Source of the DNA: Pedobacter sp. V48 | Lineage (GTDB): Bacteria; Bacteroidota; Bacteroidia; Sphingobacteriales; Sphingobacteriaceae | NCBI RefSeq assembly: GCF_000523515.1 | Contig: NZ_AWRU01000034.1 | Location: 233,107 to 266,377, forward strand | Length of the DNA: 33,271 nt | Reading direction: 5' to 3' | Shown here: positions 745 through 3,495 of the stretch, one piece after another | Layout: each line of letters begins with the position of its first letter | How positions within the stretch are numbered: the first letter of the stretch is position 1 | Made by a program: the position numbers and the translations under genes | Notes under the pieces: generated by a model | The model's database searches: none | The model's input: only the letters and a program-made list of their open reading frames with translations | What the model was told of the DNA's origin: nothing

Positions 745-1995
745 CTAAAAATCCAGCTTAAGCCTTACGCCCGTGCCTATTAATCGCAAATTCTCTTTAG
801 AAACCTCTTTCATTGGAACTTTCATAAAAGGTTCTATTGATACGGCTTTATTTTTAGATATCTTTTGTTTATAGCCAAATGAAAAATTATAGAATCCGAT
901 ATACCTTCCATCTTTAATTTCAGATTCGGGTGCTGGTTCTACTACCCTTTCATTTACGGCAAATGTCTTAAGCTCCGCCAATCCATCACCACCAGAACTT
1001 ACAGCACGCTCTACCAATTTTTCCTGAATGTAACTGTTGCTCTGTTTCTGATTAATTACGGCAAATGCAGATACTCCAACATTGGCATACAGGTTTTTAC
1101 TTAAACGGTACTTCAGTTCAAGTGGAATATCTATACCGGTTACCTTAGCCTCTATTGATTCTAAATTTTTACTTTCGCCAGCAATAGCGGTACTTACAGG
1201 AGCAGGCAGGCTTCTTGATGCGGCCATTTCGCTATATGATACGCCGGAGTTTAAGGAGATTTTGTCTGATAAAGCATATCCCATACTTACCCCATAACCC
1301 ATGTTGAGTTTTTTTGTATTTCCAAATGATGGCGAAACAACAAGTCCCATTTCCCATTTGTCTTCTTTTCGGGGAGTCGATGATTTTGCCAGCGCTTCTC
1401 CCTGATTCTTTTTGGTTTCATTGTTTAGAAACTCCTGGAAAAGAGTGGTTTTATTTTCCGTTGCTATTGGTTTCGTTTCTGTTTTAACAATATCTTGCTT
1501 AGTATCTGGAACGCGAACCGAAGGCACAACAACGGGATTCGATTTTTCAGCAATTGCTTCTGTAGAGGAGGCCGAAAGGGTCTTTAAAGGCTCTTGAGCA
1601 GCGGTATAAACAGATATATTATTGCGTTCTCTTACCGCAGCTAATTGCTCATGTTCCTTCTCTGCTATCGGCAAATCTGCTTCTTTTACAATGTTCTCTT
1701 CAATTTTTACAGAAGGGGCAGGTGTTTCCTTTTGCTTATGTCGTACGTTTTGTGCTGGCAATACACCTGTTGTTTTGTTGGTGAAAAGTATAATTGCTGC
1801 ACCGGCAATAAGTATTACTGCCGCCGCGCTGCTTAAGCGCCACAACCATAATACTTTTGCATTCCTTTTCCCTTCAATTTGATTGAAGTTTTCCCATGAG
1901 CCCGGAACATACTCCTCCTCATGCCCTGTCAGACTTTCCTTTATATGAGCTATTAACTCATCTTCAGATCCTTTCATATGTTCAATTGGTTGCAT
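745..1995 (-). CDS. Sigma-associated single-pass membrane protein with C-terminal beta-barrel-like domain
   Basis: A 416-residue protein whose start lies inside the end of the ECF sigma gene (14-base overlap). A second ATG at 1977 would instead leave a four-base gap. The first ~48 residues look cytoplasmic and contain GSWENF, a motif I recall from Sphingobacteriaceae proteins encoded next to ECF sigma factors. One strong membrane helix lies at about 49-71. A charged, proline- and lysine-containing linker runs from about 75 to 212. The segment 213-416 looks like an outer-membrane beta-barrel of the OmpA/PorT kind, with alternating strands such as MGLVVSPSFG and GYGVSMGYALSDKISLNSG and a C-terminal aromatic residue (LKLDF). 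The gene order suggests it controls or is controlled by the adjacent sigma factor, probably as an anti-sigma-like partner, but no classical zinc anti-sigma domain is visible. The role is inferred. Confidence 0.72.
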   Translation of the reverse strand: MQPIEHMKGSEDELIAHIKESLTGHEEEYVPGSWENFNQIEGKRNAKVLWLWRLSSAAAVILIAGAAIILFTNKTTGVLPAQNVRHKQKETPAPSVKIEENIVKEADLPIAEKEHEQLAAVRERNNISVYTAAQEPLKTLSASSTEAIAEKSNPVVVPSVRVPDTKQDIVKTETKPIATENKTTLFQEFLNNETKKNQGEALAKSSTPRKEDKWEMGLVVSPSFGNTKKLNMGYGVSMGYALSDKISLNSGVSYSEMAASRSLPAPVSTAIAGESKNLESIEAKVTGIDIPLELKYRLSKNLYANVGVSAFAVINQKQSNSYIQEKLVERAVSSGGDGLAELKTFAVNERVVEPAPESEIKDGRYIGFYNFSFGYKQKISKNKAVSIEPFMKVPMKEVSKENLRLIGTGVRLKLDF

Positions 1996-2551
1996 ATGAA
2001 TTAATTAATGTTTTAGAATACAGGTCCCTCAACTTATTCTTGGCTCGTGTAAGGTATACCCTACTTGAACTCTCTGGAATGTTCAACATTTTCGATATCT
2101 CATCGTGCGAAAAACCTTCAATTTCATACATATTAAAAATAAGCCGGTGTGTTTCCGGCAATTGATTAAGCAGCTTTAAAATGTCTTGCACATTTAATTG
2201 CGACACGGCATTGACTTGTGTAAGCGGTTGCTGATCCTCACTAATATCATCAACATACAAGTATGTCCTTTTTGTTCTTAAAAAATCTATTGCTGTTCTT
2301 GATGAAATTCTTGCTATCCAGCCCTTAAAGGCCTTTTGTAATTCGGTGTTATCTTTTGGAAAACTAAATTGCGTTATTCCTTTAAAAATTTTTATAAAAC
2401 TATCATTTACAAGCTCTTCCGAGTCATTTCTATCGTTAACATAACGCAAAACAACGCCCATTAAATAGCCATAGAATGATTTATAGATCATCTCTTTACT
2501 CTTGTTGTCATTCTTCAAACACCCCGCTATAATATCCTCAAGCCCGAGCAT
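1982..2551 (-). CDS. ECF-type RNA polymerase sigma factor
   Basis: A 189-residue alternative sigma factor of the extracytoplasmic-function type, directing RNA polymerase to a specific promoter set. Region 2 lies at about 25-95 (YLMGVVLRYVNDRNDSEELVND, the -10 recognition helix region). Region 4 lies at about 125-185: the LPETHRLIFNMYEIEGFSHDEI stretch followed by MLNIPESSSRVYLTRAKNKL is a helix-turn-helix for the -35 side. The length is normal for the family. Its 3' end overlaps the start of the membrane-anchored barrel protein, so the two are almost certainly co-transcribed and translationally coupled. No exact TAnnTTTG element was found in front of it, and its own target promoter is unknown. 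Confidence 0.93.
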   Translation of the reverse strand: MLGLEDIIAGCLKNDNKSKEMIYKSFYGYLMGVVLRYVNDRNDSEELVNDSFIKIFKGITQFSFPKDNTELQKAFKGWIARISSRTAIDFLRTKRTYLYVDDISEDQQPLTQVNAVSQLNVQDILKLLNQLPETHRLIFNMYEIEGFSHDEISKMLNIPESSSRVYLTRAKNKLRDLYSKTLINSYATN

Positions 2552-2667: not shown

Positions 2668-3372
2668 TTAGTGAGTAAAAATAGCTGCTCCAACCTTCAT
2701 TTCTTCTGTTGTAGCTGCCTTAAGTCCTTTTACCCAAATGGTATAAACTTTTCCGTTCTCAATTTTTTGATCAGCCAACGTTGCAACATCAGCACCGGCA
2801 GCGTCTTTAACTTTAAACGATACTTTATCTCCAGCATCAACACTTTCAAAGTTACTATATTCTTTAAATAGTTTATTAGTAGCTACAGGCACATCCTTTC
2901 CAACTATTGATAAACTTAATGCAGGAGCGTCAGGGCTAAGGTTTATGAAACGAAGTTTCGCTTTACCAGCACCTGGCATGGTAACAGAATCTTTAACCAA
3001 CAAGAACTTTACTTTATCAAATGAATCGATAATGAAAAGTGAATATGCCTTTTGATCGGCTAATTTTAATTTTTCTGTTAAAACGCTGGTAGAAGATCCT
3101 TTTTTGGTGATTTTTACGTCTCTCTCTCCCGAATAAATTTGCTTATAGTCAATTCTGTTGGTGTAAGCAAAATCATCGTTGTTTACCTTGGTATCTCCAA
3201 TATAAAAATCTAATTTTTCAGTAGTTGGAGAAGCATGGATAACGTCCATAGCAGATATCGGTTGTGGGGTATAGTCGATCTTATCCTTTGAACAAGACAC
3301 CAATACTGCTGAGATGGTAACCGCAGCAATAAGTGTTTTCGATATCGCTTTAAATTTGTTTGAAATTTCCAT
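2668..3372 (-). CDS. DUF4397 domain lipoprotein
   Basis: A 234-residue exported lipoprotein. Residues 1-26 form a signal sequence ending in the lipobox LVSC, with C27 the predicted lipidated cysteine, followed by SKDK. The body matches my recollection of DUF4397, a family of beta-sandwich envelope proteins: it opens with MDVIHASPTTEKLDFYIGD, and a second repeat-like segment contains LRFINLSPDAPALSL. The two (I/F)(H/N)xSP motifs suggest two related sub-repeats. Function of the family is unknown. The gene stands alone between the sigma operon and htpG, all on the minus strand, and ends in a hairpin. No promoter match was recognised. The family call is fairly safe; the biological role is open. 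Confidence 0.78.
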   Translation of the reverse strand: MEISNKFKAISKTLIAAVTISAVLVSCSKDKIDYTPQPISAMDVIHASPTTEKLDFYIGDTKVNNDDFAYTNRIDYKQIYSGERDVKITKKGSSTSVLTEKLKLADQKAYSLFIIDSFDKVKFLLVKDSVTMPGAGKAKLRFINLSPDAPALSLSIVGKDVPVATNKLFKEYSNFESVDAGDKVSFKVKDAAGADVATLADQKIENGKVYTIWVKGLKAATTEEMKVGAAIFTH

Positions 3373-3495
3373 AATGTACTATCTTTTTAAGGGTTGTTTT
3401 TTACGATTAATAAAATAAATGGTTAATGGCCATTAACACTTTTTTTCACTAAAACGACTCTGACCGTCAAAACGCTACACCAGCCTTAAAAATAA

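Follow-up and report, generated by a model that had tools for sequence, protein, structure and literature searches.

We analyzed a 33,271-nucleotide stretch of the 6.46-Mb assembly of Pedobacter sp. V48 (G000:C34:233107-266377; the whole stretch is called the window below) and found on its minus strand, at 745 to 1995, an intact ORF that starts with ATG and encodes a 416-amino acid (aa) protein, very probably an anti-sigma factor of the Dma type. The minus-strand gene order is htpG, a DUF4397 gene, an ECF sigma factor gene, the 416-aa gene, and a thioredoxin-like gene; the names of the two flanking genes are our assumption from the look of the sequences. The DUF4397 gene (2668 to 3372, minus strand) is lipoprotein-like and precedes the sigma gene (1982 to 2551, minus strand), which encodes a Das-like protein of 189 aa and shares 14 nt with the 416-aa ORF. 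The original prediction had named this overlap, and its placement of the gene at 745 to 1995 and of the segment borders within the protein was essentially right, as judged by the ORF, hydrophobicity, and AlphaFold2. The sigma protein passed the Pfam cutoffs for both Sigma70_r2 and Sigma70_r4_2 (hmmscan), and only general sigma models matched it in Pfam and NCBIfam.

The closest titled record, a protein of P. panaciterrae LMG 23400, is 97% identical to the 416-aa protein. The DUF4397, sigma, and 416-aa genes occur together in all nine titled Pedobacter loci, htpG accompanies them in all but L011 (eight of nine, once on the opposite strand), and a thioredoxin-like gene in five. Across the genus, the 416-aa protein was matched in 56 of 60 genomes, and with these matches and the nine titled loci we rejected the possibility of a chance ORF at 745 to 1995. 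We also rejected the absence of the system from some Pedobacter genomes: the four genomes that P0001 failed to match (G032, G039, G044, and G054) all match profile A2, the match in G044 being weak and lying in a 261-aa frame.

The first 49 residues (1849 to 1995, minus strand) contain two predicted helices, the pattern ELIxHIxxxLxxHEExYxxGaWExF, and a near-invariant Trp34, which is kept in at least 90% of 104 aligned proteins encoded directly behind sigma genes in a sample of the class. The Lys/Arg-rich flank places this segment, by prediction, in the cytosol. It is followed by a predicted inner-membrane helix (residues 50 to 72; 1780 to 1848, minus strand), Lys/Arg-rich on its cytosolic side; the strongest 19-residue hydrophobic stretch of the protein begins at residue 54 and AlphaFold2 draws a helix over residues 45 to 71, in agreement with the single N-terminal transmembrane helix of Dma proteins. 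No curated anti-sigma family of the FecR, zinc-finger, or RseA types matched the 416-aa protein in Pfam or NCBIfam at E values up to 10. The expectation that no classical anti-sigma domain would be visible thus held at the level of these databases but failed beyond it, as the N terminus belongs to a recognizable family: residues 9 to 48 aligned with a profile of N termini from other families at an hhalign probability of 97.4% and a score of 46.1, whereas 50 column shuffles scored 7.9 on average and never more than 15.3. The comparison profile consisted of two Bacteroidaceae sequences and 76 N termini of other families, the latter retained from 100 pairs after removal of 10 in same-family loci and 14 failing the helix filter, and the match points to homology with other sigma-linked Dma members. 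In the PDB, the A1 profile found no relative; three matches to Large T antigen at E values of 1.3 to 1.4 were taken as chance.

Residues 73 to 212 (1360 to 1779, minus strand) are predicted to form a periplasmic tether that is mostly disordered. Its length varies between 125 and 168 residues, and is never under 125, in 37 orthologs, and is 107, 149, and 129 residues in three V48 paralogs. The prediction of disorder follows from the low aromatic content (2.5% compared with 9.7% in the barrel described below) and from the AlphaFold2 confidence, with blocks of pLDDT 21 to 28 at residues 71 to 180 and 37 to 50 at residues 181 to 210; the excess of disorder-promoting residues is small (53.1% in the tether, 49.1% in the barrel), and the tether contains no Cys and 0.0% Trp. 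Together with a mean pairwise identity of only 15.9%, these features give the long disordered tether seen in Dma. By a simple polymer estimate, 125 to 168 residues have a contour of 45 to 60 nm (∼50 nm for 140 residues), which is enough to cross a periplasm of 20 to 30 nm.

The C-terminal part, residues 213 to 416 (748 to 1359, minus strand), is predicted to be an outer-membrane beta-barrel ending in Phe. The full-length AlphaFold2 model, built from 10 sequences, had a mean pLDDT of 51.8 and a pTM of 0.41, with residues 1 to 50 at 33 to 46, most of the barrel at 69 to 88, and four barrel blocks at 48 to 64; its barrel strands span residues 214 to 415. A model of the barrel alone with the preceding helix (residues 184 to 416) agreed on the strands and reached a mean pLDDT of 71.1 and a pTM of 0.55. 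From the strand lengths, the nine strand segments probably represent eight membrane strands and an outer hairpin at residues ∼319 to 354. The top Foldseek matches of the barrel were OmpA, Ail, and OmpX, and VIA-align gave Z scores of 17.3 to a Legionella porin-like protein (3.8 Å over 170), 16.8 to OprF (2.1 Å over 127 residues), 16.1 to PagL, and 15.3 to 15.4 to OmpA crystal structures; NspA and OmpW were also among the best structural matches, and soluble barrels ranked lower (PsbO with Z up to 10.8, YceI-like with 8.9). The structural matches of the barrel-only model gave the same picture. The sequence family PF13568 scored 25.4 bits on the 416-aa protein, under its cutoff of 27 (hmmscan), and 28.6 with neighboring pieces in a six-frame search. 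The terminal residue is Phe in all 37 orthologs, which, with the fold, makes the C-terminal outer-membrane barrel of Dma a prediction for V48 as well. A soluble C-terminal domain was rejected with the barrel fold in both AlphaFold2 models. The architecture given in the original prediction, one inner-membrane helix near the N terminus, a linker of ∼140 residues, and a C-terminal outer-membrane barrel, was therefore recovered segment by segment, the last of these as a prediction; the structural modeling that it called for returned an outer-membrane-type barrel in place of the soluble fold that would have spoken against it.

Among the 37 orthologs (duplicates L001, L005, L018, and L025 and paralogs L002 to L004 dropped; one near-identical pair kept), pairwise identity averages 54.9% over residues 11 to 48, 46.0% over the helix, 15.9% over linker residues 73 to 183, and 56.0% over the barrel. 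Conserved ends around a middle that drifts in sequence while limited in length are the pattern that a membrane bridge predicts. A profile of the 416-aa protein matches 109 of 198 genomes of the class. Although the 153 loci (duplicates counted) were gathered by similarity to Dma and not to sigma, 150 of them contain a sigma ORF, and with the 14-nt overlap in V48 we consider the adjacent ECF sigma gene the cognate one. Several sigma-linked proteins of ∼220 to 265 aa (L065, L067, L070, and L080, among others) keep the N-terminal segment and helix and by length seem to have no barrel.

The DUF4397 gene is a regular partner of this pair. Of 43 loci, duplicates counted, 40 encode a relative of its product (P0003) beside the sigma and barrel genes; the V48 paralog loci L003 and L004 are without DUF4397, and L002 gives a shortened view of the gene seen in L005. 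In 29 of 33 stretches upstream of DUF4397, TAGCGTTT recurs at fixed spacing, and in the window we predict an ECF-type promoter, TGTAGCGTTT-N13-CGTTTT, at 3451 to 3479 on the minus strand; the form of the motif resembles ECF promoters in general. The strict form, TGTAGCGTTT-N13-CGTWW, occurs 185 times in 60 Pedobacter genomes compared with 3 times in the control, about one site per genome being the operon's own, from which the motif was derived. A looser form, TGTAGCG-N16-CGTWW, occurs 13 times in the V48 genome compared with none in the reversed control. At three mismatches the motif was not enriched (130 compared with 118 in the control), and outside the family the strict form was at background, with 7 matches in 192 genomes compared with 8 in the control. 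In one of these seven cases (G186, L051), the motif precedes its sigma gene by 155 nt. By eye, the intergenic stretches of Bacteroidaceae contained no such motif.

Within the family, 36 of 47 loci (L001 to L047, duplicates counted), including all nine titled ones, carry the strict motif upstream of the sigma gene. The 11 misses comprise three V48 paralogs (two views of one), one truncated window duplicate, and seven loci ending 867 to 926 nt upstream; for six of these seven, a motif match appears further out in the genome lists. From its position, the motif is presumably what this sigma factor reads.

We studied 45 distinct motif sites, 13 in V48 and 32 in other Pedobacter genomes. All but two (43 of 45) lie outside ORFs of 150 aa or more, and two are directly before a sigma gene. 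A lipoprotein-like gene follows the site in 34 of the 45 cases by a looser test and 24 by a strict one, leaving 11 and 21 without; as controls, 0 of 19 near-motif sites passed the strict test, and 41 and 60 of 2,000 random positions (∼2 to 3%) passed the loose one. Of the 45 sites, 11 precede DUF4397 genes, and of the other 34, 23 precede lipoprotein-like genes (8 of 11 in V48 alone). Family scans of ten V48 targets identified a serpin, a lipocalin-like protein (Lipocalin_4), another DUF4397 protein, and a Dabb protein that carries no lipoprotein signal; five were without a family and one had a match only below the cutoff. The motif sites thus predict a lipoprotein regulon, and paralogous sigma factors may share the same motif. 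The serpin, lipoprotein-like by the looser test (L198:1556-2800), lies 27 nt behind a looser-form site in the V48 genome.

V48 carries three paralogous sigma-Dma pairs, on C15 (L002/L005), C6 (L003), and C31 (L004). The C15 operon keeps the DUF4397 gene and has a promoter variant with three mismatches, and the C31 operon combines the strict motif with a different lipoprotein-like gene; in the stretch fetched for C6 there was no lipoprotein-like gene and no motif under six mismatches. Just downstream of the predicted promoter in the window and before the DUF4397 gene, positions 3422 to 3437 (unstranded) form a perfect 16-bp palindrome, GTTAATGGCCATTAAC. Elsewhere in the V48 genome it is found only in the C15 paralog operon, even with one mismatch allowed, and this restriction to two operons suggests a second regulator or an RNA element common to both.

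The closest described systems are from gut Bacteroidales, as far as the passages of the Dma and Reo papers extend, and V48 would carry their architecture into Pedobacter with a different partner gene. Passages of one paper (PMC13088901) describe Dma1 and Dma2 of Bacteroides thetaiotaomicron as an N-terminal anti-sigma segment, a transmembrane helix, a disordered tether, and a barrel, encoded next to an ECF21 sigma gene; in the absence of Dma2, das2 and the operon genes rise, and loss of Dma1 induces nigD1. The V48 protein shares with Dma1/Dma2 and their partners Das1/Das2 the N-terminal segment, the one transmembrane helix, the long disordered tether, the C-terminal barrel, and the adjacent ECF sigma gene but differs in that Pedobacter is not a gut species and its upstream gene is DUF4397, not NigD. 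For Reo of Phocaeicola vulgatus, passages of two papers (PMC9308784 and PMC13114119) describe a protein that spans all compartments and likely senses outer-membrane stress, and an EcfO regulon that contains nigD genes, putative lipoproteins. EcfO-Reo (Phocaeicola vulgatus M0N98_03761-03760) thus resembles the V48 pair in its barrel-bearing anti-sigma factor and in having lipoprotein genes in its regulon, whereas the organism is another and the predicted Pedobacter targets belong to other lipoprotein families. The proposal of an envelope-spanning V48 protein that reports the state of the outer membrane to the sigma factor was therefore right in kind and had its counterparts in print, for Reo (PMC9308784, PMC13114119) as such and for Dma1/Dma2 (PMC13088901) as envelope-spanning architecture and sigma control. 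With the anti-sigma architecture already published for relatives, the fresh parts are the candidate promoter consensus, the predicted regulon, and the type IX variant described below.

A Bacteroides finegoldii locus (NZ_OY725958.1; L266) is annotated as NigD-like, sigma-70 family, and outer membrane beta-barrel protein; as in V48, the sigma gene is followed by the barrel gene on the same strand, there with a 6-nt gap, but the NigD-like gene is divergent. Identity between the two sigma factors is 29% over 169 columns, and the barrel proteins gave a weak match to each other in direct BLAST. Between the Pedobacter and Bacteroidaceae-type Dma profiles, the barrel aligned with a probability of 99.2% and an E value of 1.2e-19, and by sequence profiles, which alone show it, both protein ends are homologous to those of the Bacteroidaceae relatives. 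An unannotated P. massiliensis record has, by ORF reading, apparently the same gene order. Among the matches listed from the open-licence PMC literature on such anti-sigma factors, none contained "Pedobacter"; the pairing of DUF4397 with a sigma gene and the motif was not found in open-licence PMC papers, and among the matches listed there for DUF4397, nothing concerned this setting.

We conclude, with a probability of about 0.86, that the 416-aa protein is an envelope-spanning anti-sigma factor of the Dma/Reo type that controls the adjacent sigma factor and lipoprotein genes. Architecture, conservation, gene linkage, barrel fold, homology at both ends, and motif enrichment were computed directly. 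On these we infer a mechanism in which the ECF sigma factor, whose gene lies just upstream, would be bound and sequestered by residues 1 to 48, a single helix would anchor the protein in the inner membrane, and the disordered tether would cross the periplasm to an OmpA-size barrel inserted at the same time in the outer membrane. When the outer membrane or the assembly of the barrel is disturbed, the sigma factor would be released and would start transcription at TGTAGCGTTT-N13-CGTWW promoters, both in its own operon and ahead of the lipoprotein genes. In FecR-type signaling, too, an anti-sigma factor relays a signal from the outer membrane to an ECF sigma factor, but receptor and anti-sigma factor are separate proteins there, whereas V48 has both on one chain.

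The alternatives concern what the barrel senses and whether the chain stays whole. An envelope-spanning anti-sigma factor could have a barrel that responds to one particular cue, for example a ligand or a lipoprotein contact, and not to the general state of the outer membrane; the conservation of the barrel (56% mean identity), its predicted outer hairpin at ∼319 to 354, and the conserved linkage of the DUF4397 gene are in favor of this variant, which we hold possible, with the odds against it. It is rather improbable that the protein, made full length, is normally cleaved in the linker, leaving the barrel and the inner-membrane anti-sigma part separate in the resting cell. Several anti-sigma factors are processed by proteases (RseA, RsiV, and FecR-type systems), and an unconserved linker predicted to be disordered would suit such a step, but the linker never falls below 125 residues even as its sequence changes, which is the behavior to be expected of a tether, and the alignment contains by eye no conserved cleavage motif. 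The weakest alternative, a mainly mechanical tether or spacer between the membranes with an incidental sigma linkage, fits the geometry (contour ∼50 nm for 140 residues) but is very unlikely given an N-terminal segment as conserved as the barrel, a sigma ORF in 150 of 153 loci, and shorter relatives that keep the sigma linkage seemingly without a barrel.

The predicted envelope-spanning anti-sigma factor of V48 may have relatives with other anchors. Of the 104 proteins directly behind sigma genes in the class sample, 18 carry a type B sorting domain of type IX secretion (CHU_C or TIGR04131), and in nine of nine picked relatives the same N-terminal segment and helix are combined with PKD domains and with a CHU_C domain that scores above the cutoff. 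If the type IX system exports these CHU_C relatives and their N terminus remains cytosolic, surface-tethered anti-sigma factors could form a modular class with interchangeable anchors, the barrel being one of several and the Pedobacter form running a lipoprotein regulon via one shared promoter; we offer this broader reading tentatively. A real type IX variant would make the physical coupling of sigma factor and cell surface a general design across the class. No open-licence PMC paper connected an anti-sigma factor to type IX secretion with type B sorting, and the nearest among the matches listed was a paper on PorA and SigP (PMC7712824). PKD and CHU_C domains in place of the barrel were observed at L053, L054, L058, L064, L091, L092, L117, L129, and L146. 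By eye, a few of the 104 sigma-linked proteins have a different N terminus (L104, L121, and L143, for example), and at L104 and L143 TGTAACTTT...CGTCTT lies 29 nt upstream of the sigma gene.
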